Below, one piece after another: positions 2,364 through 18,260 of a stretch of 48,081 bases of DNA. Where the stretch lies: positions 1-48,081 of the forward strand of contig JANWYQ010000175.1 of NCBI GenBank assembly GCA_025055015.1, in the 5' to 3' direction. The notes beneath the pieces were generated by a model. That model ran no database searches and had not been told where the DNA came from. It was given only the letters and a program-made list of their open reading frames with translations. Origin of the DNA: Caldilineales bacterium. Its GTDB lineage: Bacteria; Chloroflexota; Anaerolineae; JAAEKA01. Every line of letters starts with the position of its first letter. The stretch's first letter is position 1. The position numbers and the translations under genes were made by a program.

Positions 2364-3908
2364 ATGGCGCTGCCCATCCCCAGCTTGCTGCTCAAACAGC
2401 TCTACACCTTCGACAGCCTGAAGAACACCCCCCAGGGCGTGCAGTTCTCTCTGAAGAACCGCCTGAGCGACGCCACCGTCACGGCGGTGCACCACGTGAA
2501 GTTGGACGACCAGGTCGTGCCGCGGCATGCGGTGACCCTAGTGCTGGCGGATGGCACCACCCTGTCCCTGGACGATGTGGCAAAACAGCCAATAGAGTTT
2601 CCGCTGCGTCGCACCTTGGACGTGGTTTGCCGCATTCCGCCGTTGCCGGAGGGCAAGCACAAGATCGAGGTCAAGTTCGACGCAGCGCCCTTCGGCACCC
2701 TGACTCTGAAGGTGGAGGGCGCCATCGCAGCCCAGACGGAGCGCCGGGTGACCATCCCGCGCGACAAGGTGGACGACTACGCGCCGGAGATTGTTCGTCA
2801 GCGCCAGCAGTTCGTGGAGGAGTTCACCGGCAAGAAGCTGGAGCACATCATCCACTACTCCTTCGATCCCCACATCACCAAAGGGAACATCGAGCACTTC
2901 ACCGGCGTGGCGCAGGTGCCGTTGGGCTTTGCCGGTCCCATCACAGTCAACGGGGAATACGCGCAGGGGGACTTCATCATCCCCCTGGCCACGGCTGAGG
3001 GCACCTTGGTGGCCTCCTACAACCGCGGCATGAAGGTGCTCAACCTGTCGGGCGGGGTCAAGACCAGCGTGATCGGCGACGCCATGCAGCGCGCGCCGGT
3101 GTTTGTGTTCGACGACGCGCGGGCGGCGCGCGACTTTGTGGCCTGGGTGCAGCAGAATTTCGCCAAGATCGCCGAGGAGGCCGAGGCGACCTCCAGCGTG
3201 GCCAAGCTGCAGTACATTGACCCCTACCTGGCCAGCAAGTTTGCGTTCCTGCGCTTCAACTTCACCACCGGCGACGCGGCGGGACAGAACATGGTGGGCC
3301 GCGCCACCTTCGCCGCCTGCAGCTGGATCCTGGACAACTACCCGGGCATCCGCCACTTCTACCTGGAGTCCAACCTGGCCACCGACAAGAAGGCCTCCCA
3401 GGTGAACGTGATGCACACGCGCGGCAAGCGGGTGGTGGCCGAGGCCACGGTGAAGCGGGACGTGCTGATCCAGCACATGCGGGTGGAGCCGGAGCAGCTG
3501 TTCTACCACTACAACGTGGCCAACATCGGCGCCATCCTGTCCGGCGCCAACAACAACGGCCTCCACTCCGCCAACGGCATCACCGCCATGTTCATCGCCA
3601 CCGGCCAGGACGTGGCCAACGTATCCGAGTCGTCCGCCGGCATCCTCTACACTGAGCTGACGCCGGAGAACGACCTGTACATGGCGCTGACCATCCCGTC
3701 GCTGATCGTGGCTACCTATGGCGGCGGCACCGGGCTGGCCACGCAGCGGGAGTGCCTGGAGCTGCTGGGCTGCTACGGCCGGGGCAAGGTGAAGAAGCTG
3801 GCCGAGATCGTCGCCGCCGTGGCGCTGGCCGGCGAGATCTCCCTGGCCTCCGCCATCTCCTCTGCGGACTGGGTGTCCAGCCACGAGAAGTACGGCCGGA
3901 ACCGGTAG
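2364..3908 (+). CDS. Hydroxymethylglutaryl-CoA reductase, class I-like, with extra N-terminal domain
   Basis: Reduces HMG-CoA to mevalonate, the committed step of the mevalonate isoprenoid pathway. I start at ATG 2364 because AGGAGG lies just upstream; an in-frame ATG at 2244 lies upstream of the promoter. The 514 residues fall into two parts. Residues 1-120 form a predicted beta-rich domain not found in ordinary HMGRs. Residues about 130-514 are the reductase: TAEGT with catalytic Glu212, GDAAGQNM with Asp304, DKK with the catalytic lysine at 342-343, GQDVANVSESS at 414-424, and the terminal SSHEKYGRNR with His507. The order and the C-terminal His-containing tail fit class I enzymes, but family motifs are altered (GDAAGQN for the usual GDAMGMN). 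There is no membrane anchor, so it should be soluble. Other mevalonate genes are not in the window. Confidence 0.9.
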   Translation: MALPIPSLLLKQLYTFDSLKNTPQGVQFSLKNRLSDATVTAVHHVKLDDQVVPRHAVTLVLADGTTLSLDDVAKQPIEFPLRRTLDVVCRIPPLPEGKHKIEVKFDAAPFGTLTLKVEGAIAAQTERRVTIPRDKVDDYAPEIVRQRQQFVEEFTGKKLEHIIHYSFDPHITKGNIEHFTGVAQVPLGFAGPITVNGEYAQGDFIIPLATAEGTLVASYNRGMKVLNLSGGVKTSVIGDAMQRAPVFVFDDARAARDFVAWVQQNFAKIAEEAEATSSVAKLQYIDPYLASKFAFLRFNFTTGDAAGQNMVGRATFAACSWILDNYPGIRHFYLESNLATDKKASQVNVMHTRGKRVVAEATVKRDVLIQHMRVEPEQLFYHYNVANIGAILSGANNNGLHSANGITAMFIATGQDVANVSESSAGILYTELTPENDLYMALTIPSLIVATYGGGTGLATQRECLELLGCYGRGKVKKLAEIVAAVALAGEISLASAISSADWVSSHEKYGRNR

Positions 3909-4263
3909 AGGTGGAGCTACCGGCCGAGGCTTTCGCCCTCTGCCCCGCCGAAAGGCTTCGCTCCTCGAGCTCCTCCCTCCTCCGGGTCGAGGCTTTAGCC
4001 CAATGGTGCTAAGTTTCGATCCCCTTACCCATCGGCTAAAGCCTCGACGCCGCCCATAGCCGAAACCACCGGCCAAGGCCTCGCCCTTAGCTCACTCCTC
4101 CTCCCGACACGGACTGTCCTCCCGACACGGACTCGAGGCTTTAGCCGGTCATTCGAGAGCACCCCGCCTAAAGGCTCCACTCCTCGAGCTATCCCTTTTC
4201 TCGGAGGCGAGGCATCAGCCAGCCGACCCTCTCGCCGAGCAACTCGCTTAAAGGCTCGACCCG
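3909..4263. repeat. Dispersed intergenic repeat, copy 1 (gene-free spacer)
   Basis: This 355-base spacer between two convergent genes holds no convincing gene. It is built of short direct and inverted motifs such as GAGGCTTTAGCC and its complement GGCTAAAGCCTC, so it can fold extensively. A 26-base block at 4058-4083 is identical to 19110-19135. A 17-base unit starting TCCTCCCGACACGG occurs in tandem at 4099-4115 and 4117-4133 and again at 19155-19171. TTCGATC-CCTTACC at 4015-4029 matches 19086-19100 with one change. The two loci are therefore copies of one repeat family. No transposase is visible. Confidence 0.8.
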
Positions 4264-4264
4264 A

Positions 4265-6718
4265 TTAGGTTCGCCGCACCGGCAGCGGCTGCACCCGCCA
4301 GATGTCCGCGCAGTACTGGCGGATGGTGCGATCAGAGGAGAAGAAGCCGCAGCGCGCCACGTTGAGGATGGACATGCGCGTCCAGGCCTCGGGGTCGGCG
4401 TAGTAGGCCCGCGCCGCCTGCTCGCTCACCGCCACGTAGTCCGCGTAGTCCGCCAGCAGCATGAACTCGTCTCGCGTCAGCAGCGACTGCACGATGGGCT
4501 GGAAACGGCTGCGGTCGTCGGGCGAGAAGGCGCCGCCGCCGATGGCATCTATGGCTGCCTTGAGCTCTGCGTTTTGGCGGTAGTAGGCCAAGGGGTCGTA
4601 GCCTCTCGCCTTCAGGTCGAAGACCTGGTCGGCGGTGAGGCCGAAGAGGAAGAAGTTCTCCGGCCCCACCAGCTCGCGGATCTCAATGTTGGCGCCGTCC
4701 AGGGTGCCCACGGTGACTGCGCCGTTGAGCGCGAACTTCATGTTGCCCGTGCCCGAGGCCTCCTTGCCCGCCAGGCTGATCTGCTCTGAGATGTCGGCCG
4801 CCGGATAGATGCGCTCACCCAGCGTCACGTTGAAGTTGGGGAGGAACGCCACCTTCAGCCGGCCGGCCACGTCGGGGTCGCTGTTCACCACCCGGCCCAC
4901 GTCGTTGATCAGCTTGATGATCAGCTTGGCCATGCGGTAGCCGGGCGCGGCCTTGGCGCCGAAAATGAAGGTGCGCGGGGGCACGTCCGCCTGTGGGTCG
5001 GCCTTGAGACGGTGGTAGAGGGTGATGATGTGCAGCGCCTTGAGCAGCTGCCGCTTGTACTCGTGCAAGCGCTTCACCATCACGTCGAACAGGGTGGCGG
5101 GGTCCACCTCGACGCCGGTGCGGCGGCGACAGAGGGCGGCCAGGTCCTCCTTGTTCTGCTGCTTCACCTGGCGCCAGGCGGCGCGGAAGGCCGGGTCGTC
5201 GGCGTGGGCCTCCAGGCCGGCCAGCAGCTCCAGGTTGGTCAGCCAGGCCTCGCTGCCCAGGGTCTGGGTGATCAGTGCGCTCAGCCGGGGGTTGGCCAGG
5301 CGCATGAAACGCCGGGGAGTGACGCCGTTGGTCTTGTTGTTGAACTTCTGTGGCCAGAAGTCCGCCAGGTCCCGCAGGGTGTGCTCGCGCAACAACCGCG
5401 ACTGGAGCTCAGCCACCCCGTTCACCGAAAAGCTGCCCACCGTGGCCAGGTAGGCCATGCGCACGTTGCCGTGGGCCACGATAGACATCCGCTCGGCGCG
5501 GTCAAGGTCGTTGGGATAGCGCTGTCGAACCTCCTGCAAGAAGCGGCGGTTGATCTCATTGATGATCTCCAGATGGCGGGGCAACAGCCGGCCGTACATG
5601 GACACCGGCCACTCCTCCAGGGCCTCCGGCATCAGGGTGTGGCAGGTGTAGGCGAAGGTGCGGCGGGTGATGTCCCAGGCCTCGTCCCAGCCCAGCTTCT
5701 CCTCGTCCATCAGGATGCGCATCAGCTCCGGGATGGCCACCACCGGGTGCGTGTCGTTCAGCTGGATGGCCACCTTGTCAGGGAAGGCGGCCCAGTCGCT
5801 GTTGCGGAAGCGGAAACGGCGGATGATGTCCTTCAAGGAGCATGCCACGAAGAAGTACTGCTGGCGCAGCCGCAGCTCCTTGCCCTGAGGGGTGGTGTCG
5901 TTGGGGTAGAGCACCTTGGTGATGTTCTCGGAGCGCACCTTCTGCTCCACCGCGCGCTCGTAGTCCCCCATGTCGAAGAGCTGAAAGTCGAACTCGCGGG
6001 TGGCCCGCGCCCGCCAGAGGCGGATGATGTTCACCGTCTCGGTGTTGTAGCCGGGCACCAGCATGTGATACGGCTCGCCCATGATGGTCTCGGCGGGGAT
6101 CCAGCGCACCCCTTCGAAGCCGTTGGGCCCCATCAGGTACTCGGTGTAGCCGCCGAAGCCCACCTGCACCATGTCGTCAGGCTGGGGGAACTCCCACGGG
6201 TTGCCGTAATATAGCCACTCGTCCGGACCCTCCACCTGCCAGCCGTCCTGGAAGGACTGGCGGAAGATGCCGTACTCGTAGCGGATGCCGTAGCCGACGC
6301 AGGGGATGTCCAGCGTGGCCATGGAGTCGAGGAAGCACGCGGCCAGCCGGCCCAGGCCCCCGTTGCCGAGCCCCGGCTCCACGTCCAGACCGATGAAGTC
6401 TCGCAGCTTCAGGCCGAAGCGCGCCGCGGCCTCCTCGGCCAGCTGCCAGGTGCCGCTGTAGAGCAAGTTCTGGGTGAGCTGTCGGCCCAGCAGGTACTCA
6501 GCCGAGAGGTAGTAGACGAACTTGGGATTGGCCTCGAACTGCGCCTGCGTGGTCCTGCGCCAGCGGTCAATCAGATAGTTGCGCACCGTGAGGCACAGGG
6601 TCATGTACGCGTCCCGGACGCTGGCCGACTGCGGGGTCGTGCCCTGGGTGAAGTAGAGGTTGTCCAACAGCGCCTGGGCAAAGTCTTCCACTGTGTGCTG
6701 GATAGGGGTGACGGACAT
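4265..6718 (-). CDS. glgP: Glycogen/maltodextrin phosphorylase
   Basis: Releases glucose-1-phosphate from glycogen or maltodextrins using phosphate and pyridoxal phosphate; cytoplasmic. The 817 residues equal the usual length of the classical family (GT35). Conserved blocks are [19 protein letters not shown] (114-132), NDTHP (321-325), KRLHEYKRQ (549-557), FGAKAAPGY (586-594) and [14 protein letters not shown] with the PLP lysine K661. The ATG at 6718 has GGAGGT eight bases upstream. No glycogen synthase, branching or debranching gene is adjacent, so the substrate cannot be narrowed. Confidence 0.96.
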
Positions 6719-7119
6719 GGAGCACCTCCGAAGGGCGGCGAGAGATTACCGCGCATACACCATCCCGGGGATCGCCAAGGGGGGCCTAGATGGCCGGGAC
6801 AGACCGACCCGCCCCAGGCCCGAGGACGCTGCTCGGGGCCGGCCGCTTGCCAGTAGCCATTGTACGCTTCAGCGCCGACCTTGGGCAGTCGGAAATCTCC
6901 GGTTTCGGGTAACCGGTCAAGGGCCGGGGGAACGCGATCGGTCTACGAAACGATAACCAATTTGTCAATTTTTGTGGGTTGTAGTAAAATCGTAGAGCCT
7001 CTCGTCGTTTGTGGTCTCGGCGATAGGCCGGTTGCAGGCTTTGCACCGCATCGCTGCCACCATCGCTCCCAACGTGCAACACCAGGCTCGGCCTGGACGC
7101 AACCCATCGGACGTAGACC
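6719..7119. other. Divergent spacer between glgP and the STAND/TPR gene
   Basis: 401 bases with no supported gene. It holds an AT-rich patch at about 6945-6995 with a good plus-strand promoter. For glgP on the minus strand there is only a weak candidate: -10 TACAAT at 6864-6859 without a convincing -35. Confidence 0.6.
6962..6990 (+). promoter_or_regulatory. Promoter of the 981-residue STAND/TPR gene
   Basis: -35 TTGTCA (6962-6967), a 17-base spacer, and -10 TAAAAT (6985-6990) in the only AT-rich patch of the spacer. The predicted start near 6997 leaves a leader of about 120 bases before ATG 7120, which has no clear Shine-Dalgarno. Confidence 0.7.
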
Positions 7120-10065
7120 ATGGCTTCACAACCTATCTTTGCCGGTCGTGGCCAGGAGCTTCGACGCCTGGCTGCATGTCTGGATCGCAGCCTCAGCGGT
7201 CGCGGCCACGTGTGTGTGCTGACGGGGGAGCCGGGCGCCGGCAAGACCGCCCTGGCCGCCGAGTTTGCCCGCCTCGCTCAGGCAGCGCGGCCCGACCTGA
7301 TCTTCGTCGCCTCCGCCTGTCTGCCCTTCTACGGCCCACGCGTTCCCTTCCATCCCTTTCGCTCCCTGTTGCAGCGCTTGACCGGCGTCGGCCCGCAGCG
7401 CACGGCGGCTGAGGTCAACTCGGCGCGGTTGCGCCGCCTGGTGGAGCACGCCACGGCCATCGTGTTGGACTGGGGCCGGGACCTGTTCGAGGTCTTTCTG
7501 GCGCCGATGCCTGCAGCGGCGGCCGGCGACCCGCTGTGGCAGCCGCTGCCCGCCGTGTTGCTCTTTCAGCAGTACGCCAACGTGCTGCACCGCCTGTCCC
7601 AGAAGACGCCGTTGGTAGTGCTGGTGGACGACCTGCAGTGGGCCGATCGTTCCTCCGTGGCGCTGTTGGAGCATCTGCTGCCGCGGCTGGCCTCCAGCCG
7701 CATCCTGTTGCTCCTGGCCCACACGCAGGGCGCGCAGCCGGAGGCCGGCGAGGCCTATGAGACGTTGAACGCGCTTCTGGCGCAGAGCAGCGACGAGGTG
7801 ATAGACCTGGCGCGCAGCGATGGACGGGCCTGGATAGACGCCTACCTGGAACAGATCCCTAGCCGTTTGGACGCCGACTTCCGAAAGGGATTATACCGGC
7901 AGACGGCCGGCAATCCGCTGGCCGTAGGTGAGCTCATCCGCCTCATGGAGGACGCCGGCGCCTTGGCTCCGGACGACTACGGTGTTCGGGCGCCGCGCAG
8001 GCCCATCTTCTGGCGAGAATGGCCGGGCCGGGCGACAGGGGTGGCCCAAGCGGTGCTGGACCGGCTGCCGGCGCCGGTGTTGGAGACCCTCCAGGCGGCC
8101 GCCGCGCAGGGGCTGACCTTCGTCGCCGAGGCCGTAGCCCAGGCCCAGGGGGCGGATCTCCCGGCCGTCCTGGCGCATCTAAGCCATCCGCTGGTGCAGC
8201 GCCACGGCCTCGTGAGGTCGGTGGTCCGCGGGCGGGTCAACGGCCGCAAGCTGCACCACTGGGCGTTTGCGCACCCTCTGTATCTTCACCTCCTCTACCA
8301 TCAGGCGCCGATCGCTCATCGCAACGGGCTCCACGCCCGGACGGCCGCAGCGTTGGAGGCCATCCTCGGCCCAGAGGCCGATGCGGTGGAGCACGGGGCC
8401 GTCCTGGCGTGGCACTGGGAGCGCGCCGGGCAGCCCGAGGCAGCTCGACCGCTGTGGGAGCGCCTCGGCGCCCAGGCAGCCGCGTGGAGTGCCTGGCCTG
8501 AGGCCGAAGCCAGCCTGAGCCAGGCGTTGGCCTGCGCGTCGGACAGCCGTCAGCGTTTTTCGATCCTCCTGGCCCGAGAGGCGGTCCGACGCTGCGCCGG
8601 GGACGACCGGGGCCGCCAGGCCGACCTGGCGGCGTTGACGGCTCTGGCTGCCGACGCCGACCATGCAGGGCCCCAGGTAGCCGTCCACCTGCGGCGGGCC
8701 CAGGCAGCCGTCGAGGCGGACGATCACGCCCAAGGGATGGCCGAGGCTGCGGCAGCCCTGGAATGCCTGGAGGCAGTCCCTGAGGCGGGCAGCGCACTCC
8801 GGCGCGGCGCCGCGCAGCGGTGGCTGGGGGAAGCCCTCCTCGGCCAAGGGGACCTGGCTGCGGCGGACGAGGCCCTGTCTGCCGCCCTGGCAACGGCTCA
8901 AGAAGCCGGCCACCAGCGGTTGCAGGCCGACACCTTGCGCAGCCTGGCCGTGTGCCGCCTGCGGCAGGGGCGCCTGGAGGAGAGCCGAGGCTGCTACGAG
9001 CAGGCGGTTTGGCTGTGCCACGCCGCCGGCGACCGAGTGGGCGAGGCCGCCGCCCGGCACGGTCGGGCGCTGGCGCTGCTGCACCAGGGACGGATTGACG
9101 CCGCCTGCGACGCTCACGCCAAGGCGCTCGCCTTTGCCCGGCGCAGCGGCAACCAGCGGGCGGAGCTCTTCGCTCTGCTCAGCCTGGCGTCGCTGAACCT
9201 GGCCCTAGGTCGGTGGGCCCAAGCCGCCGACGAGAGCGAGGCCGCTCAGGCCGTCGCCGAGCAGATCGGCGAGGACCGGCTGACAGCCCATGCCCTGGCG
9301 CTGCAGAGCGTCGCCCGACGCCATCTCCAGGGCAACGCGGCTGCAGCGGTGGCCGCTGCGCAGCGAGCCCTGGACCTGGCGGGCCAGCTGGGGGATTGGA
9401 GCGCGCAGCGCGCGGCGCAGCTGGCCCTGGCCGATGCCCTGGCCGCAGGCGGCCAGCACCTTGAGGCCCTGGCTGCCTACTGGCAGGCGCTCGACACCGC
9501 CCACGCCATGCAGGACGAGGAGCTGGCCCTGTTTGCCCTGAGCGGCCTGGCCGAGCTGGCGCTGGCAGCCGGCGCCGACCACCTGGCGGCCGCCCGCGCC
9601 CAGGAGATCCACCGGCGACTGGCGGCGAAGCCGGCGGTGAGCCTGGACACCATCGCGCGGCCGGCGTTGGCGGCCTTCCGAGGGCTCCGGGCCAGCGACC
9701 CGGCGGCCGCCGCGGCCCTGCTGCAGGATGCCCATCGTCGCCTGCAGGCGGTCGCCGAGCGCATCGTGGACGAGGACCTGCGTAGGTCGTATCTGACGGC
9801 GCTGCCGGCCCACCGCGAGCTACTCGCCCTGGTGGCCAGCACAGCCCCGGCAACGATTGCGGTGGCCGACCTGCCGCAGCTCGAGCAGACGGTGAGAGGG
9901 ATCAGCGCCGCCGAGCCTGGGGCCCCACGGTCGGCGCCGGCGCCGCTCCGCCGCAGGGGGCCTCTGCCCTGGTGGCGCCGCCATGGGCTGTTCCCCCGCC
10001 GGGCGGCGGAAGCCGCCGCAGCCGCGGCAGCCCTGGCCTTCTGGCTGTCTAGGGCCTCGCAGTGA
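7120..10065 (+). CDS. STAND-type AAA ATPase with TPR repeats and C-terminal membrane helix
   Basis: A 981-residue signalling-type NTPase of unknown input and output. It opens with FAGRGQELRRL, the start typical of MalT/AfsR-like and cyclase-associated ATPases, then Walker A GEPGAGKT (36-43) and Walker B LVVLVDDLQWAD (165-176). A helical middle part follows, then TPR-like repeats from about 440 to 860 (many A-L-G/A-Y/L repeats). The last 30 residues contain a basic stretch (WWRRHGLFPRRAAEA) and one hydrophobic helix (AAAAAALAFWLS), a possible tail anchor. No DNA-binding, cyclase or kinase domain is present, so the effector must be elsewhere or be the TPR surface itself. It is convergent with comEC. 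The function is a family-level guess. Confidence 0.8.
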   Translation: MASQPIFAGRGQELRRLAACLDRSLSGRGHVCVLTGEPGAGKTALAAEFARLAQAARPDLIFVASACLPFYGPRVPFHPFRSLLQRLTGVGPQRTAAEVNSARLRRLVEHATAIVLDWGRDLFEVFLAPMPAAAAGDPLWQPLPAVLLFQQYANVLHRLSQKTPLVVLVDDLQWADRSSVALLEHLLPRLASSRILLLLAHTQGAQPEAGEAYETLNALLAQSSDEVIDLARSDGRAWIDAYLEQIPSRLDADFRKGLYRQTAGNPLAVGELIRLMEDAGALAPDDYGVRAPRRPIFWREWPGRATGVAQAVLDRLPAPVLETLQAAAAQGLTFVAEAVAQAQGADLPAVLAHLSHPLVQRHGLVRSVVRGRVNGRKLHHWAFAHPLYLHLLYHQAPIAHRNGLHARTAAALEAILGPEADAVEHGAVLAWHWERAGQPEAARPLWERLGAQAAAWSAWPEAEASLSQALACASDSRQRFSILLAREAVRRCAGDDRGRQADLAALTALAADADHAGPQVAVHLRRAQAAVEADDHAQGMAEAAAALECLEAVPEAGSALRRGAAQRWLGEALLGQGDLAAADEALSAALATAQEAGHQRLQADTLRSLAVCRLRQGRLEESRGCYEQAVWLCHAAGDRVGEAAARHGRALALLHQGRIDAACDAHAKALAFARRSGNQRAELFALLSLASLNLALGRWAQAADESEAAQAVAEQIGEDRLTAHALALQSVARRHLQGNAAAAVAAAQRALDLAGQLGDWSAQRAAQLALADALAAGGQHLEALAAYWQALDTAHAMQDEELALFALSGLAELALAAGADHLAAARAQEIHRRLAAKPAVSLDTIARPALAAFRGLRASDPAAAAALLQDAHRRLQAVAERIVDEDLRRSYLTALPAHRELLALVASTAPATIAVADLPQLEQTVRGISAAEPGAPRSAPAPLRRRGPLPWWRRHGLFPRRAAEAAAAAAALAFWLSRASQ

Positions 10066-10098: not shown

Positions 10099-12618
10099 TC
10101 ACCGTTCATGGCGACACACCACGCTGCGACCGTCGCTGGCGCAGCTCACCGTGCCGGCCAGGTCGGTGCGGTGAAAGCGCTCCGGCCCGGTGACGGCGGT
10201 CCATGCGTCCTCCACGGGCGCGTCCAACGTGCGAAAGCGATCCTCCCGGGGCGTGAACACCACCGCGTGCTGCGGCCGGCTGGCTTCCAGCAGCGTCGGG
10301 CTGAAGCGGGCCTGCCGGCCGCCCGCCGGCACCTTGACCACGGTGGCCGGCCCCACCAGCCCCAACGTGACCAGCTCCTCCTGCACTGCGGTCGAGGCGT
10401 CCCCGGTCAACAGGAAGCTGGTGTCGCCGTAGCTGAGGCGCAGCACCGTCGAGTTGGCGGCCAAGTCCGGCTCCCCGCTGCGGGTCACGGCCGGCTCCGG
10501 ACCTGGGTGGAGCACGTCCAGCGCGATGCCGTAGCCCAGCAGCACCCGCGTGCCCCGCTCAGCCGCCGCCGTCGGCACTCGCTCGGCCTGCAGGCGGCGC
10601 AGCCACTGGCCGTAGGCCGCCGATGGGTAGGGAAAGGGAGGCTGCAGCACCTGGCCCACGCGGTAGCGCGTGGGGAGCTCAGTCAGGCCGCCCAGGCGCT
10701 CGTCGCCCGGATGGGTCAGGACCACCAGCTCGATCTCCCGGTCGTAGAAGGGGAGGTGCTCGCCTAGAGCGCCGAGCAGGGCTGAGGGGCTGTAGCCGCC
10801 GTCCACCAACACCTGTTGGCCGTCGGGGGTGACGATCAAGATCGCCTCCCCGCGGCCCACGTCCAGGAAGTGGACGTGCAGGCGACCGTCGGGCAGGCTG
10901 CGCAGAGCGAAGAACAACAGGCCGGACAGCACCAGCACGCCGCCTCCGGCCAGGGCTAGGATGGGCGCGCTGCGCAAGGCAGCTTGGCCGCGCGCCGTTG
11001 CCGTAGCCAGCCAGCCGACGCGCGACCGAAGGCGAGGACCCCAGGCCGCCAGCGCCAGCGCGCCGTAGAAGCCCCACAGCCCGAGGGCGCCGACCCGCAG
11101 CTCCACGGCGGCGAAGGGCAGCGCGGCCAGGGTCTGCACCACCAGCACCGTCCAGTGCAGAGCCAGCCAGGGGATGAAGGCCACCCCCTGCGCCAGGGGC
11201 TCCAGCACGACCCCCAGGGGCGGCCACCAGGCTGCCGGCAGCGCCAGCAACATCGTCACCCCGCCCCAGATCAACACGTACGGCTGCACCGGCAAGATCA
11301 ACAGGTTGGCCAGCGGGGACACCAGCGACACCCGCCCGAAGTGGTAGGCGATCAGGGGCAGGGTGAGGACCTGCGCTGCCAGGGTTACGAACAGCGCGTC
11401 GTTGAGCAGCCCCAGCAGCCGCTGCCGCACGGCTGCCGTCCCGGTGTCTGTCGCCCCTGGAGCGGAGCCGCCCAGCCGCCGCTCGGCCCAGCGCGTCAGC
11501 GGCGTGGCGAAGAGCACCAGGCTGAGGGTGGCGGTGAAGCTGAGCTGAAAGCCCACGTCCCAGAGGGTGAGGGGGTTCAGGGCGGTCATGGCAAAGCCGG
11601 CTAGAAAGAGGGACACAAGGGCCAGCCCCTGGCGCCCAAGGTAGGCGGCCAAGGCCATGAGGATGCCCATGATGGCCGCACGGGTCACGGCCGCGTCGGC
11701 GCCCACCAGCACCGTGTAGAAGAGGATGCCTGCCACCACGGGGTAGAAGGCCCGGCGCTTTCCCAGCAGTCGGCCCAACAGGGCCGTGAGGAGACCGGCG
11801 ACGATAGCGATGTTGAAGCCGCTGATGACGATGATGTGGCTGGTGCCGGTGCGGTTGAACTGGTCGTACAGGTCTCGGTCAATGCCCGTCTCCACGCCCA
11901 ACAGGATGCCGGTGAGCAGCGCCGCCTCAGGCTCCGGCAGCAGGCGGCCGATGATCTCCTGTCCCTGGCTGCGCAGGCCGTACACCGCCCGCCAAAAGAG
12001 CAGGGACGGCTGCTCGGCGGGCCGCACGCTGCCCAGCCGCTGCACTGTCGCCTGCTCGAGCTGCGTGTGGATGCCGCGGCGAGCCAGATACTCTCGGTAG
12101 TTGAAGTCCACAAGGTTCGGCGGCGCCGCCAGCCACCCCTCGACCGCCAGCCGGTCGCCGACCCGCAGAAGCTGGGAGCGATCGGCCCTGAACAGCGCGT
12201 CCCCGCGCACAGGCCGCGAGGTCGTCTCGCCCTCCAGGGTGAGGCGCTCAGCGCGGAGGCGCACCGCCACCTGCCCATTGCGCTCCTCCGGCGGTCGGAT
12301 CACTGCGCCGACCACCGTGGCCCGCACAGGCGCGTCCTCGGTCCCCCGGTAAAAGGCTAGGTCGAGCGGGGTGAAACAGGGCTCAAAGGGGTGCAGCTGA
12401 TAGCGCAGGGCCCCCAACAGCGCAGCCAGCAGCAGGGCCATCGGCAGCCGCCAGCCCGGCCGACGCTGCGCAGCCGCTAGCCCGGCCGCCGGCGCCGCCA
12501 GTAGGCCGGCCCACGCCAGTGGGCCTGGCGATGTGCACTCCATCAGCCCGGCCGACCACGCTGCGCGGCCCAGCCAAATGCCCAAGCCCCAGGCAGCGAT
12601 CAGGTAGACCAGGGCCAT
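10099..12618 (-). CDS. comEC: ComEC/Rec2-type DNA uptake channel with degenerate beta-lactamase-like domain
   Basis: ComEC is the inner-membrane channel for incoming single-stranded DNA in natural transformation. Visible parts are N-terminal membrane helices and an OB-like region; the core competence domain (LTGILLGVETGID, then TSHIIVISGFNIAIVAGLL) with many membrane helices; and a C-terminal metallo-beta-lactamase-like domain from HFLDVGRGEAILI to LLTGD. In that domain the expected HxHxDH is replaced by THPGDERLGG, so only the first His remains and nuclease activity is doubtful. The longest reading frame starts at GTG 12636, but I choose ATG 12618, preceded by GGAGGAGG at five-base spacing; this gives 839 residues. 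Other competence genes are not in the window. The methyltransferase lies 57 bases upstream on the same strand. Confidence 0.9.
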   Translation of the reverse strand: MALVYLIAAWGLGIWLGRAAWSAGLMECTSPGPLAWAGLLAAPAAGLAAAQRRPGWRLPMALLLAALLGALRYQLHPFEPCFTPLDLAFYRGTEDAPVRATVVGAVIRPPEERNGQVAVRLRAERLTLEGETTSRPVRGDALFRADRSQLLRVGDRLAVEGWLAAPPNLVDFNYREYLARRGIHTQLEQATVQRLGSVRPAEQPSLLFWRAVYGLRSQGQEIIGRLLPEPEAALLTGILLGVETGIDRDLYDQFNRTGTSHIIVISGFNIAIVAGLLTALLGRLLGKRRAFYPVVAGILFYTVLVGADAAVTRAAIMGILMALAAYLGRQGLALVSLFLAGFAMTALNPLTLWDVGFQLSFTATLSLVLFATPLTRWAERRLGGSAPGATDTGTAAVRQRLLGLLNDALFVTLAAQVLTLPLIAYHFGRVSLVSPLANLLILPVQPYVLIWGGVTMLLALPAAWWPPLGVVLEPLAQGVAFIPWLALHWTVLVVQTLAALPFAAVELRVGALGLWGFYGALALAAWGPRLRSRVGWLATATARGQAALRSAPILALAGGGVLVLSGLLFFALRSLPDGRLHVHFLDVGRGEAILIVTPDGQQVLVDGGYSPSALLGALGEHLPFYDREIELVVLTHPGDERLGGLTELPTRYRVGQVLQPPFPYPSAAYGQWLRRLQAERVPTAAAERGTRVLLGYGIALDVLHPGPEPAVTRSGEPDLAANSTVLRLSYGDTSFLLTGDASTAVQEELVTLGLVGPATVVKVPAGGRQARFSPTLLEASRPQHAVVFTPREDRFRTLDAPVEDAWTAVTGPERFHRTDLAGTVSCASDGRSVVCRHER

Positions 12619-12675
12619 GCCGGCCTCCTCCATCACCGGGTTGCCCCCTTTCCCAGCGTGGGCAACCCGGGGCGC

Positions 12676-13910: not shown

Positions 13911-13960
13911 GGAGAGAGTCGGTGGAGGCCGTGGAGTCGCGCGAGAGTCTTTGGAGAGAG
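13911..13960 (+). repeat. Phased GGAG/GAGAG motif cluster
   Basis: GGAG or CGAG starts at 13911, 13924, 13933, 13942 and 13953, spacings of 9-13 bases. It contains GGAGAGAGTC and AGAGTCTTT, both also present upstream of the split STAND operon (17629-17638, and the complement of 17611-17619). This may be a shared regulator-binding region. Confidence 0.35.
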
Positions 13961-14068
13961 AAAGGATAGCTCACGGCGGCCGAAGTTGGCTATACTTTGG
14001 CTAGCGACCGACAAGTGGGCGACGTTCAACGACTGGCACCTTGAATATGTAGACGGAACCGAGCTACC

Positions 14069-14623
14069 ATGCGTGCTACGCACCCCGAGGTGTTGGTGCT
14101 CTGGGCGGAGCGCTTCGACGAGGCCGCAACCGTGCGTTTCGTCACGGCCTTTCGCAAGGCCGGCCTGCGCACCAAGCTGGTCAGCCTGGGCAGCCGCCCC
14201 TCCGCCGGCGCTCATGGCCTGGTCCTCTTGCCCGATTGGACGCTGGAGGAGGCGCTGTCAAAAGCCCGTGGGGTGCGGTGTGTGGTGGTGCCGGCGCCCG
14301 CGGCGGGCTTTCAGCGGGTGACCAACGATCCCCGCGTCGAGGCGCTGTTGGGATGGCTCTCGACCCAGGACCCGCTGTTGATCGTCGGACCGTTGGAGGC
14401 GAGGCCGATGGCGCAGCGCATGGGGCTGTCGTTTGTGGACTGGGGCGAGGACGAGGAAAGGGACCAGATCATCCAGCGCGTGATCAGCTACATGGCGACC
14501 ACTTCGTCGGCGCCGAGCGAGCAGCAAGGACATCCGGAGGAAACTCAGCCGGGTTTGGCCGAGGAGGCAGAGACGTCTGTCCCGTGGGACGGTGCACAGC
14601 CCTCGCAGGTAGACCCCAGTTGA
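14069..14623 (+). CDS. Degenerate DJ-1/PfpI-like protein of unknown function
   Basis: 184 residues. The first ~115 can be laid along the DJ-1/PfpI fold: VLVLWAERFDEAATVRFVTAFRKAG, then KLVSLGS, a GAHGLVLLPDWTLEEAL stretch, VVVPAPAAGFQRVTNDPRVEALLGWL, then DPLLIVGP. The nucleophile elbow that should read AICxGP is shortened to LIVGP, so the catalytic cysteine is absent. The partner glutamate also appears to be replaced by alanine. The usual second half of the fold is missing, and the last 60 residues are Glu/Pro/Ser-rich and probably disordered. Enzyme activity is therefore unlikely; a binding or regulatory role is possible. It ends 116 bases before the small secreted peptide gene on the same strand, so the two could be co-transcribed. 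Confidence 0.55.
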   Translation: MRATHPEVLVLWAERFDEAATVRFVTAFRKAGLRTKLVSLGSRPSAGAHGLVLLPDWTLEEALSKARGVRCVVVPAPAAGFQRVTNDPRVEALLGWLSTQDPLLIVGPLEARPMAQRMGLSFVDWGEDEERDQIIQRVISYMATTSSAPSEQQGHPEETQPGLAEEAETSVPWDGAQPSQVDPS

Positions 14624-14693: not shown

Positions 14694-14739
14694 GGGGCCC
14701 CGGCGCTCAGTACCTCGTTGCAGCGCGGAGGACTGAGCC

Positions 14740-14901
14740 ATGAAGGAGCGCCTCGTCCAGATACTTGTCAACCTACTTCTAGTCGCGGCCGTGTTGGCCG
14801 GACCGGGGGGCGTTGTCGTTCGCCAGGCGGCGACGGGAGCTGCATCAGCGCCGATCGCCGTAGACGGCCAATGCTCTACGGGTGGCCACTGCGGCGACTG
14901 A
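14740..14901 (+). CDS. 53-residue secreted/leader peptide with CX5C tail (unrecognised family)
   Basis: A short gene with a good ribosome site, GGAGGA (14727-14732), seven bases before ATG. The product has a basic start (MKER), a hydrophobic stretch LVQILVNLLLVAAVLAG (5-21) that looks like a signal peptide, a small-residue linker, an AASA site at 34-37 resembling a signal peptidase cleavage site, and the tail PIAVDGQCSTGGHCGD (38-53) with Cys45 and Cys51. If cut there, the mature product would be 16 residues and could close a CSTGGHC disulfide ring. I do not recognise the family. It lies tail-to-tail with the TPR gene, ten bases between stop codons. A signal peptide-derived autoinducer, a modified peptide precursor or a small membrane protein are all possible. 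Confidence 0.6.
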   Translation: MKERLVQILVNLLLVAAVLAGPGGVVVRQAATGAASAPIAVDGQCSTGGHCGD

Positions 14902-14911
14902 GCGCCATCGC

Positions 14912-16174
14912 CTAGGGACCGCCTTGGGGCTCTAGCGTCTGCCCATCGGCCGCGGGGTCGAGACGCGCGGCCAGGGCGGCGAACTGCGTCGTCACCCACC
15001 TCGGCGGGTGGTCAACGCCGTCGAGGAGCGTCCTTGCGCGCACCAGGGAGGCTGCAGCCTCGCTTTGGTGTCCCAGGTCCAGGAGCACCTCGGCCAGGTT
15101 GGCCAGCGCGCCAGCTGCGCTGGTTCGGTCGTCCAGCTCCAGGTACAGCTGCGCGGCCTGCTGGTAGGCTTCCCTGGCCTCCTCGCGGCGGCCCAGGTCG
15201 GCCAGGAAGACGCCGATGTTGTTCTTGGTGTGGGCCTGGTAGAGACGATCGCCCAGACGGCGGAACACCGGCTCTACGGCCTGGTGCAGCTGGAGCGCGT
15301 GCTCGGTGCGCCCAAGGATGTCGTGGTAGAAGGCCCCCAGGTTGACCTGGGTGCGCGCGGCGTGGGGATCGTCTCCCAGCCGGCGGTAGAGCTCCAGCGC
15401 TCTGAGAAAGTATGCCTCGGCCTCGGGGCGGCCCATCTCGTAGTAGAGCTGGCCCAGGTTGTTGAGAACCTTGGCCTGGCCCCGCACGTTGCCTAGGCGA
15501 GCGAACAGCGCCTCGGCCTGTCGGTAGTGCGCCTGCGCCTCCTCCGTCCGCCGCAACCGGCTGGTCACAAGGCCCCAGTTGTTGTAAAGCAGCGCCAGCT
15601 CGGCCAGGTCATCCTCGGCCAGCACGGACGCCGCCTCCGCACAACATCGGTCGGCCGCCAGCACGTCTCCGGTGTGGAGGTACACCTGGCTGAGGTGGGC
15701 CAGAACCCGGCCGACGCCCGCCGGACGGCCGATGGCCCGGTATCGCTCTAGGGCCGCTTCGAAGTAGCGCTTGGCTGCGCCGGTCTCCCCCAAGGTGCGG
15801 GCTATCTCGCCCAGGTTGTCCAGCAGCGCCCCCTCGTGCTCCGCTGCCTCGGCGAGCCCCGCCGCAGCCAGGCGCCGGCACACGGCTAGCGCCTGTTCTG
15901 TCAAGGCGCGCCATAGGCCCAGGTGGCCGCGCAGCTCTGCCAATCTCTGCCCGCTCTCCACCAGGGCGATGCCGCTCTGCCAGGCGCCCTCCTCGCTGAG
16001 CGCCAGCTCGGCTGCCTTGACGATGTTGGCCATCTCCCGCGCCAGAAGTTGGGGGTCGTAGCGATGGGCCTCGACGAACCGAAGATAGTGGTCCGCGTTG
16101 AGGGCGATCTTGCGCCGGAAGCGCTCGCGCAGGTCGGACGTCGCCGGCGCAAGGCTGGCGGCGGCGTCTACCAT
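14912..16174 (-). CDS. Tetratricopeptide-repeat protein, probable sensor half of a split STAND system
   Basis: 420 residues. After an N-terminal helical region (1-80) the protein is almost wholly TPR-like helix pairs, including LLDNLGEIARTLGE, VLAHLSQVYLHTGD, LYNNWGLVTSRL, VLNNLGQLYYEMG, TQVNLGAFYHDI, TKNNIGVFLADLG and ALANLAEVLLDLG. The N-x-G spacing resembles the TPR sensors of Rap/NprR-type and NB-ARC-TPR regulators, which bind peptides or proteins. Its ATG (16174) overlaps the stop of the upstream ATPase gene in ATGGTAG, so the two should be translationally coupled. In most STAND proteins this sensor is fused to the ATPase; here it is a separate chain. It is cytoplasmic, with no signal or membrane segment. 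Confidence 0.85.
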   Translation of the reverse strand: MVDAAASLAPATSDLRERFRRKIALNADHYLRFVEAHRYDPQLLAREMANIVKAAELALSEEGAWQSGIALVESGQRLAELRGHLGLWRALTEQALAVCRRLAAAGLAEAAEHEGALLDNLGEIARTLGETGAAKRYFEAALERYRAIGRPAGVGRVLAHLSQVYLHTGDVLAADRCCAEAASVLAEDDLAELALLYNNWGLVTSRLRRTEEAQAHYRQAEALFARLGNVRGQAKVLNNLGQLYYEMGRPEAEAYFLRALELYRRLGDDPHAARTQVNLGAFYHDILGRTEHALQLHQAVEPVFRRLGDRLYQAHTKNNIGVFLADLGRREEAREAYQQAAQLYLELDDRTSAAGALANLAEVLLDLGHQSEAAASLVRARTLLDGVDHPPRWVTTQFAALAARLDPAADGQTLEPQGGP

Positions 16175-17586
16175 CGCAGCACCTCCTCCCGCAGGAACGT
16201 CTCGGTCAGGCGGTGCACGCTGTAGCGACGATGGAACAGATCGCCGCTGACGTTGACCAAGGAGAGGCGAACCAACTGGGCCAGCGCCTGTTCCAGGTCG
16301 GGGCCTTGGACCTCGCAGCGCTGGCTGATGGTGTCCAGGTCAGCCCCCTCTTGGCTGAAGAGGACCAGGGTGGTCAGCACCTCACGTTCCGCCTCGTTCA
16401 GCTGCTCCCACGAGCCCAGGTAGATGTAGCGGTACAGCGCCTCGGCGGCTGCGCCGGAGGCCCTGCGCAGGTTGCCTAGCACCCGGTCCAGGGGAAGCAG
16501 GGCCACCTGGCCGACTACCAGCTTCAGCGCCAGCGGGTTGCCCCCCACGGTGTCGTAGATGGCGCGCAGGTCGCCGTCGGCTGCGGCCGCCATAGATGGC
16601 ACGTTGCACAGCAGCGCCTCGCGGCGCAACAGGCGCAGGGCGTCCTCCTGGCCGAGCTCAGGCACCGTGAAGGGGTAGACGTCGGGCTCGCCGGGGAGGC
16701 TACGCCGCGAGGTCAGGACAAAGCAGGCTGGGTGGGCCAGCCTTCGCAAGGCAGGCAACAGGGCGCCCACGTCCTCGAGGGTCTCCAGGTTGTCCACCAC
16801 CACCAGCGTGCGCGTCCGGCTGAAGTGCTGGCGCAGCAGGGGGAGCGCCCGCTTGACCGAGAACGGCGCAGGCAGCTCCGACAGCGGAATAAGCTGGTGC
16901 GCCAACTCCTCGACGAGATCCTCGGAGGTCAGGGCGGGGGTGGCAAGGCTCTCAACGAAGCCGGCGGTGTGGAACGCACAGCGCCGCGCGCTCACCCACA
17001 CGGCGGCGGCGAAGGCCGACTGCTCGGCGGTCAGTCGCACGGCCAGGCGATGGGCCAAGCTGCTCTTGCCGATGCCACCGATGCCGAACACCCCGATGAT
17101 GGCGGGAGCCATCTCCTTCACCACTCGCTCCAGGTGATCGAGGTGAGGCTCTACGCCCACGAGATAGCTGTAAGGGGGCGGGGGCAGGCAGGACTTCGTG
17201 AGGACGGTCGCTGCCTCGACAGCGCCGTACTCCATGCCCTGGACGATCTCGGCCAGCCGTTCCAGCGCACGGCCTTGGCGCTTGAACAGGGTTGCCGGCG
17301 CCAGGTTAATCTCGTTGCCGACCACATGAGCAGGTTTGTTGTCCAGGAAGCGCTTGCGCAGCAGGAGGGCGTGGTCGGGCAGCTCTTGCTCCAGCACCTC
17401 CAACGCCTCCAACAGCACCTGGTTGGTGGCCAGGCGCACGTTGACACGACCGCCGGAGAGCGCGCTTCGTACCACGCGCAGGTGCGCCAGAGGGCTGCCG
17501 TGGCTAGCGTCTTTGTGCCAGAGCTTCAACGCCTGGTGGATCTGTTCGACCAGGCGGGGGTCTACCCGCCGCTGCTGAGAGCTCAT
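16168..17586 (-). CDS. HTH-NB-ARC (STAND) signal-transduction ATPase
   Basis: 472 residues. The N-terminal part (about 55-115) contains LLLRKRFLDNKPAHVVGNE followed by LAPATLFKRQGRALERL, which looks like a helix-turn-helix of sigma-70 region 4 type and would be the DNA-binding output. The NB-ARC core follows: P-loop GIGGIGKS (168-175), Walker B LVVVDN (261-266), TSRR (292-295), GGNPLAL (348-354), a winged-helix region, and VHRL (457-460) at the place of the MHD motif. The protein ends there, and the sensor TPRs are in the overlapping next gene. Such proteins act as ATP-driven oligomerising switches. The ATG at 17586 has no clear ribosome site. Likely a transcription regulator; target unknown. 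Confidence 0.82.
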   Translation of the reverse strand: MSSQQRRVDPRLVEQIHQALKLWHKDASHGSPLAHLRVVRSALSGGRVNVRLATNQVLLEALEVLEQELPDHALLLRKRFLDNKPAHVVGNEINLAPATLFKRQGRALERLAEIVQGMEYGAVEAATVLTKSCLPPPPYSYLVGVEPHLDHLERVVKEMAPAIIGVFGIGGIGKSSLAHRLAVRLTAEQSAFAAAVWVSARRCAFHTAGFVESLATPALTSEDLVEELAHQLIPLSELPAPFSVKRALPLLRQHFSRTRTLVVVDNLETLEDVGALLPALRRLAHPACFVLTSRRSLPGEPDVYPFTVPELGQEDALRLLRREALLCNVPSMAAAADGDLRAIYDTVGGNPLALKLVVGQVALLPLDRVLGNLRRASGAAAEALYRYIYLGSWEQLNEAEREVLTTLVLFSQEGADLDTISQRCEVQGPDLEQALAQLVRLSLVNVSGDLFHRRYSVHRLTETFLREEVLRW

Positions 17587-17606: not shown

Positions 17607-17660
17607 CAGTAAAGACTCTACGCTAAAAGGAGAGAGTCTGTAGAGTTACTGGAGAGATCA
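17607..17660 (-). promoter_or_regulatory. Inverted-repeat region upstream of the split STAND operon
   Basis: AGACTCT (17613-17619) and AGAGTCT (17633-17639) are a perfect inverted pair, 13 bases apart. GTAGAGTTACTG (17640-17651) is close to the complement of 17607-17621. With GGAGAGA at 17651-17657 this makes a compact cluster 25-75 bases before the ATPase start, a candidate binding site for autoregulation. I see no strong promoter hexamers. Confidence 0.4.
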
Positions 17661-18260
17661 CCCAACGCAAGTTGTGCTAGAGTGTACCGTAGAGAGAGCC
17701 ACTAGCTATGATCGCTCCAAGCGCTGCGGCGAGACGGGGGTTATCGCCGACCAACGGCGCTGGAGACCGCGTCAGCGAGGGCCGGGCCCAGGGTCTTGCC
17801 CTCGCTGTTTATTTCCTCCGGTTTGTCCTGGCTGCCCTCGCACGGCGCCGCTAGCCGGCCTAACCGTCGGAGGCTGCCTTCACGAATCCGCCTTTGAGAG
17901 CGGCCGCCGTCAGGCGGCGGCGTCGCTGTTGCCCAACCAGCTCGTCGTGCTGCCCCCTGGGTGATCTCCTGCCGACCGCTACAAACACATCTACGACGCC
18001 CACCGGGCGCACAAGGGCCGCCCTTCGCACAAGGGTCTCGGCCTCGTTCCGGTCCACACCCACAGGCATCTCCGCAGCCGGCGAGAGGATCTCCCTGGCA
18101 ACTCGCATTATATCCGGGTTGGGGTAAAGGAAAAAAACTCCGTTGGCGGCCGGGCGGTTCAGAAAGGACGTAGGCCAACGAGAGCCGCCGGCGCCCCTGC
18201 GAGGGGCTCCTTGGCAGCCTGGGACGACGGCATCGGCCGCTGGCTGTTTGTGGGCAGCGA

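Follow-up and report, generated by a model that had tools for sequence, protein, structure and literature searches.

In a 48,081-nucleotide stretch of a Caldilineales genome (contig JANWYQ010000175.1 of assembly GCA_025055015.1; hereafter the window), a four-gene module comprises a DJ-1/PfpI-like gene, a small peptide gene, a TPR protein gene and an NB-ARC ATPase gene. The module, present in dozens of Chloroflexota genomes, has the appearance of a genuine regulatory circuit that seems not to have been described before; no description of it was found in the literature searched, among open-licence papers. We propose, with close to even confidence, that it is a self-contained Chloroflexota system in which a STAND activator controls the gene for an exported peptide that feeds back on the TPR arm of the activator. 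Cytoplasmic TPR receptors for peptide signals have been described mainly in Firmicutes, and we know of no natural ligand for most bacterial STAND proteins. Chloroflexota are abundant in sludge and sediment communities; most of them are uncultured, and very little is known about their signalling. If the proposal is correct, the module may serve peptide signalling in these bacteria. The peptides are so short that gene callers may miss them.

The peptide gene (14740-14901, plus strand) has 53 codons and a good ribosome site, with the Shine-Dalgarno sequence GGAGG at 14727-14731 on the same strand. Its product is MKERLVQILVNLLLVAAVLAGPGGVVVRQAATGAASAPIAVDGQCSTGGHCGD, and cleavage after AASA would leave the possible mature tail PIAVDGQCSTGGHCGD. 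The TPR gene (14912-16174, minus strand; 420 residues) lies tail to tail with it, with 10 nt separating the two stop codons. The start of the TPR gene overlaps the stop of the NB-ARC gene (16168-17586, minus strand; 472 residues) by 7 nt (ATGGTAG), an arrangement that supports their translational coupling. The DJ-1/PfpI-like gene (14069-14623, plus strand; 184 residues) is located upstream of the peptide gene on the same strand. The original prediction, made from the DNA letters, had described the peptide gene and the coupled regulator pair accurately, yet the locus holds more: the DJ-1-like gene is part of the module, the ribosome site of the peptide lies inside a hairpin, and arrays of repeats phased at 11 bp are present. 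Its interpretation, a secreted peptide sensed by the TPR protein, is partly supported.

Conservation of the small gene beside the regulator pair

The layout recurs next to homologous regulators both within the family and in more distant genomes (Anaerolineae-type Chloroflexota). A peptide paralogue in the same genome (G000:C69:30-197), ending ...NPDCHVGGHCGD, adjoins a TPR/NB-ARC pair of its own, again tail to tail. A search of relatives with the single peptide returned two convincing matches plus noise, and profiles and anchoring on the NB-ARC protein were needed. Anchoring gave 56 named loci, mostly from Anaerolineae- and Caldilineae-type Chloroflexota, and an NB-ARC match at E ≤ 1e-40 is present in 81 of the 396 genomes of the class. 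Most pairs are flanked by an opposite-strand open reading frame (ORF) of ∼45–70 codons with an ATG start, a ribosome site and a hydrophobic N-terminus. Under strict fixed rules, this ORF accompanies 55 of 72 short-TPR/NB-ARC modules with enough flanking sequence; looser start or ribosome-site rules add eight, which brings our count to about 63 of 72. The loci were picked by score and are phylogenetically non-independent and, thus, the percentages here and below are valid for this sample only. The ORF was found in none of nine loci of a related clade with longer TPR proteins. Among control genes from the same set of loci, 1/194 scored positive in the convergent and 11/173 in the divergent orientation, and the convergent one and nine of the 11 divergent ones are module peptides, picked up from the gene that flanks them on the far side. 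The peptide is also retained beside two NB-ARC-TPR fusions, L117 and L250.

The peptide family is under purifying selection. Pooled substitution proportions over 22 alignable peptide pairs are 0.40 for synonymous and 0.17 for non-synonymous sites. The non-synonymous rate (dN) is well below the synonymous rate (dS) in most close pairs, as exemplified by L233/L237 (dS 0.36, dN 0.02); in another close pair, L090/L094, the two are near parity. A chance frame might be suspected, as the ORF is short and the genome is GC-rich with many overlapping ORFs. However, context, start, stop and tail are conserved in about 70 distinct sequences, the control rates are near zero and dN lies below dS, so that we regard this explanation as refuted and give it practically no weight. 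The small gene is real and conserved beside split STAND/TPR pairs, so the original prediction clearly passed the test of a conserved small frame that it had set itself.

Regulator proteins, phased repeats and the ribosome-site hairpin

The TPR protein matches Pfam TPR_12 (3e-32), and its AlphaFold2 model has a mean predicted local distance difference test (pLDDT) score of 92.9. It is predicted to be a cytoplasmic superhelix and is the putative sensor arm of a STAND switch. Among the matches listed, LGN/Pins and kinesin light chain (KLC) are the solved structures nearest in fold, and OGT TPRs are matched as well; LGN and KLC bind peptides. The NB-ARC protein matches Pfam NB-ARC (2.5e-10), as do 27 of 27 homologues, and contains the Walker A motif GIGGIGKS and VVVDNLE, of which G-GG-GK and DNLE are invariant in the family. 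Its fold resembles that of APAF-1, CED-4 and NLR proteins. An NB-ARC/NOD domain with Walker A and a sensor arm, as expected of STAND nucleoside triphosphatases, is therefore present. The model (pLDDT 87.1) places an all-helical N-terminal domain ahead of the ATPase. The helix-turn-helix (HTH) proposed for this protein is not significant in it alone, while Sigma70_r4 is detected in 14 of the 27 homologues (best 6e-7), pointing to a sigma-region-4-type HTH. The closest bacterial regulator of known structure is AfsR (8k60, E 2e-10, for the NB-ARC part), and by sequence the NB-ARC protein appears to be an AfsR-type split STAND regulator.

Upstream of the NB-ARC genes, repeats of similar 6-mers at spacings of 11 and 22 bp are far more frequent than in shuffled sequences (z 25 and 19), as they are in the region shared by peptide and NB-ARC genes in loci of the divergent type (z 32 and 27). 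The array units are CTNTCC-like in the relatives of the window and CTNCAAA-like in the divergent type. Array 1 of the window (13932-13969, minus strand) precedes the DJ-1 and peptide genes and reads CTATCC-N5-CTCTCC-N5-CTCTCG-N5-CTCCAC; a -10-like TATACT (13991-13996, plus strand) lies 18 bp after its unit GGATAGCTC. Array 2 (17630-17656, minus strand; one mismatch) precedes the NB-ARC gene, and beside it a -10-like TAGAGT (17678-17683) reads away from that gene. The three-unit pattern with at most one mismatch occurs in only five places in the 4.14 Mb genome, three of them in the two modules: the two arrays of the window (contig C79), the second module on C69, C97, and an isolated match at a gene end on C28. 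A backward-pattern control carries no information, since CTMTC reads the same in both directions; a window shuffle, which is usable, gave 0.39 expected arrays versus three found. The last unit is GGATAGCTC both before the DJ-1-like gene of the window and on C97, GGATAGATC on C69 and GGAGAGATC before the NB-ARC gene of the window, and 18 bp past it are TATACT, TATACT, TATGAT and TAGAGT, respectively. The hexamers read away from NB-ARC where this gene is present. Across 25 loci with clear arrays, -10 likeness is highest at an offset of 16 and climbs again at 26 and 37, which corresponds to one or two further helical turns. This pattern, a statistically modest one, is confined to the flank of the array that faces away from NB-ARC. 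The arrangement agrees with that of SARP activators, which use 11-bp repeats whose 3′ repeat lies 8 bp from the -10 element (PMC10936776). The position of the arrays and their near-exclusivity in the genome suggest that the HTH binds the 11-bp repeats. Since arrays precede the DJ-1 and peptide genes, the peptide would be a target of the switch and not only its input.

Some arrays lie near other genes. On C97, a fourth strong array (5501-5538 of locus L260), with TATACT 18 bp on, precedes a gene for an uncharacterised 140-residue protein followed by one for a DUF5684 membrane protein (5810-6793); this gene pair is a candidate distant target of the regulator. In the second module (L031), the array at 3096-3133 points from NB-ARC toward a gene ∼500 bp away (3648-4397), which we take from its sequence, without a profile search, to encode a von Willebrand factor A-type domain protein and which may be another target. 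NB-ARC upstream regions also have a separate excess at lags of 7, 14 and 28 (and 36) bp; a small number of loci containing 7-bp tandem repeats may account for that at 7, 14 and 28.

The Shine-Dalgarno sequence of the window peptide is paired in a hairpin (14705-14738, plus strand), in which GCTCAGT(A)CCTC ... GGAGGACTGAGC pairs GGAGG just before the ATG. In the convergent type, the ribosome site has a mean unpaired probability of 0.20, compared to 0.36 with upstream-shuffled sequences (n=51, Wilcoxon 1.5e-7); no such effect was seen in the divergent type (n=13, p 0.11). The outer arms differ in sequence but remain complementary (GCTCAGT/ACTGAGC, CTCAATG/CATTGAG, ACGAGTC/GACTCGT, CACGCCT/AGGCGTG and CAACGTG/CACGTTG), so that pairing in the RNA is a better explanation than a DNA site of fixed sequence.

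Predicted peptide export and proposed feedback on the TPR arm

The N-region carries a net positive charge in 69 of the 70 distinct peptides, and the last 20 residues are free of Lys and Arg in 56, which fits an export signal with the N-terminus inside and the C-terminus outside. Plausible signal-peptidase sites leave 8–16 residues in many peptides (THA|CGNQGSGC, AHA|CNASGSGGGC, VLA|DEPPGGH and ASA|PIAVDGQCSTGGHCGD) and are of a clear AxA type in many convergent members. The tails differ greatly between clades. A Cys pair with 3–8 residues between is present at the end of 54 of the 70, Gly-rich tails without it (e.g. ADHTGGSTGGG, EYESGGGG and EPPGGH) account for 15, and one ends otherwise. Of the features originally expected near relatives of the regulators, the 40–70 codon frame and its hydrophobic start recur, whereas a CX5C end, or a disulfide, is not a universal signature of the family; disulfide closure fits the members with a Cys pair and fails as a general rule. 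The export-type N-terminus holds for the family, and the cut after AASA is a candidate site. At L089 (1691-9909) and L174, one genome carries three consecutive NB-ARC modules, of which at least two have a peptide of their own; tandem duplication followed by divergence of the peptide tails is a likely origin.

We propose that the sigma-4-like HTH and NB-ARC ATPase, together with a TPR arm co-translated as a protein of its own, form a split STAND activator that would bind the 11-bp-phased arrays next to -10 hexamers and turn on the DJ-1/PfpI-like gene and the peptide gene, making the circuit self-regulating. The peptide would leave by the Sec route, with a short Cys-ring or Gly-rich tail outside, and the processed tail, after uptake, would act back on the TPR arm, most likely as autoinduction. 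Such autoinduction would work like that of PlcR-PapR, and the layout of activator plus small gene is like that of AfsR-afsS. The activator half of the mechanism is the better supported. For the other half, the peptide tails still vary together with the TPR protein once NB-ARC is controlled for (partial r 0.25, p 0.001; 0.20 when the signal part is also removed), but hardly with NB-ARC once TPR is controlled for (0.06, p 0.07). This co-variation, the linkage of the peptide and TPR genes and the similarity of the TPR superhelix to peptide-binding folds count for sensing, and it is plausible that the TPR protein reads the peptide.

Several observations weigh against this proposal. As the TPR protein is cytoplasmic and the tail is predicted to be outside, sensing needs an importer that the module does not encode. 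The correlation between tail and TPR protein could stem from the adjacency of the TPR gene or from faster evolution of the TPR protein. The upstream regions of the convergent peptides themselves contain no significant array (lag-11 z 3.1), and arrays individually exceed all 40 shuffles in just 32 of 106 loci. Finally, signal-peptidase motifs are not significantly enriched in a crude shuffling test (58 versus 53.8 expected from the Ala-rich composition), so the cleavage is putative.

In a serious, if less likely, alternative the peptide is output only: the STAND activator would sense something else (e.g. envelope or phage stress) and, without feedback, make an exported effector, for example an antimicrobial, a peptide of the cell surface or one that modifies the envelope. 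In both the window and loci of the divergent type, arrays put the DJ-1 and peptide genes under the activator; the AfsR-afsS layout is likewise one-way, genes for import or processing are not found repeatedly near the modules, and the diversity of the tails among clades would suit an effector. However, the immediate linkage to the TPR gene (a median of 44 nt between the stops in the convergent type), its retention with the fused NB-ARC-TPR proteins and the co-variation of the tails with TPR rather than NB-ARC are more in keeping with a ligand and its receptor than with a generic effector. It is unlikely that the small protein instead stays in the membrane as a tiny anchor or sensor, N-terminus in and C-terminus out, and regulates the STAND pair by contact. 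Long hydrophobic stretches in divergent-type members (e.g. L106 and L112), the Lys/Arg-free tails expected of an outside segment and the lack of motif enrichment are compatible with such an anchor, but the C-terminal tail, which is the most recognisable part of the family, would then face away from the cytoplasmic TPR protein, and clear AxA-type sites stand right before the 8–16 residue tail in many convergent members.

The short Cys- and Gly-rich C-terminal cores also resemble those of a ribosomally synthesized and post-translationally modified peptide (RiPP), for which the TPR/NB-ARC pair would be the regulator. TPR and STAND proteins occur beside short precursor peptides in the FxSxx-COOH and HaaA loci, and the window pair scores weakly to those models. 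Radical-SAM enzymes define these loci. No such enzyme recurs at the modules, nor does any other modification enzyme, protease or transporter, just the DJ-1-like gene, and the scores are far under the curated cut-offs (37 versus 300 and 66 versus 1125 bits). A RiPP precursor is thus very improbable.

The proposal of an activator with peptide feedback can be taken further, more tentatively and with less than even confidence, to peptide quorum sensing of Chloroflexota that would be unrelated to RRNPP systems by descent. A split NLR-like STAND activator would be triggered by its own exported 7–30 residue Cys-ring or Gly-rich peptide, with the DJ-1-like pseudo-enzyme as modulator and the hairpin as translational gate. 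The about 70 candidate receptor-peptide pairs and candidate operator sites make directly testable whether such signalling is confined to Firmicutes and what the ligands of STAND proteins are.

Relation to known systems and neighbouring genes

AfsR-afsS of Streptomyces resembles the module in its NB-ARC and TPR transcription activator, the sequence of its NB-ARC part, its 11-bp-phased direct repeats near the -10 element and its very small target gene. Repeats with this spacing near the target -10 are evident here from the lag-11 excess, the arrays at both modules and their preferred offsets. In contrast, the OmpR-type winged helix and BTA domain of SARP/AfsR proteins are replaced by a sigma-4-type HTH, in agreement with the all-helical N-terminus of the model and Sigma70_r4 in homologues. 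Further differences are that a separate, coupled gene encodes the TPR, that the small product starts with an export-type N-terminus and comes from the opposite strand, and that a DJ-1-like gene is added.

Like the RRNPP(A) systems (Rap/NprR/PlcR/AimR with Phr/NprX/PapR/arbitrium), the module has a cytoplasmic TPR protein beside a small export-type gene whose presumed signal is at the C-terminus; this adjacency and N-terminus recur in the family at the frequencies given above. Here, however, the HTH is carried by a STAND ATPase, the peptide gene lies on the other strand in convergent or divergent orientation, the tails are Cys/Gly-rich, and the host is a chloroflexotal lineage. RRNPP surveys describe these systems for Firmicutes (PMC9765709). 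The TPR fold is nearer to LGN and KLC, and neither Rap, NprR, PlcR nor any other RRNPP chain is among the 50 matches listed for the model. The originally drawn analogy to Rap, NprR and PlcR is, therefore, functional at most. Our comparison suggests that the module would work like AfsR-afsS in activation and possibly like PlcR-PapR in sensing, as a member of neither. MalT/LAL proteins are also STAND activators with a DNA-binding domain and a TPR-type sensor arm; unlike the module, MalT consists of a single chain whose HTH is C-terminal and of LuxR type, has a sugar inducer and is accompanied by no peptide gene.

An anti-phage STAND system (Avs/AVAST) was considered and rejected: PADLOC returned generic TPR models and a marginal mad8 match, and the HTH sits at the effector position. 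No relatives were found in the viral contigs searched.

The DJ-1/PfpI-like protein has a marginal match to Pfam DJ-1_PfpI (PF01965; 5.7e-6, 26.7 bits versus a cut-off of 26.6), and homologues were found in 40+ module loci by phmmer and hidden Markov model searches. With one exception, L212, its gene is on the strand opposite NB-ARC and co-oriented with the peptide. It is divergent from NB-ARC in most loci; in the divergent type it lies downstream of the peptide on one strand, with NB-ARC and TPR on the other. No catalytic nucleophile Cys is conserved at the elbow in an alignment of 46 sequences, inspected by eye over 14 rows and the consensus, so the protein is probably a non-catalytic member of its family. 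Besides this gene, no neighbour recurs broadly around the modules.

A ComEC-type DNA-uptake gene is found near the module only in the family of the window (10099-12636, minus strand, in the window; L032:2749-5400, L094:6714-9365 and L089:10174-12657). As this is synteny only and confined to that family, a competence link was rejected as a general partnership. Another STAND-like protein is encoded nearby in the window (7120-10065, plus strand), a 981-residue AAA_16 ATPase with TPR repeats that is weakly similar to the kinase/cyclase fusions of TOMM systems.

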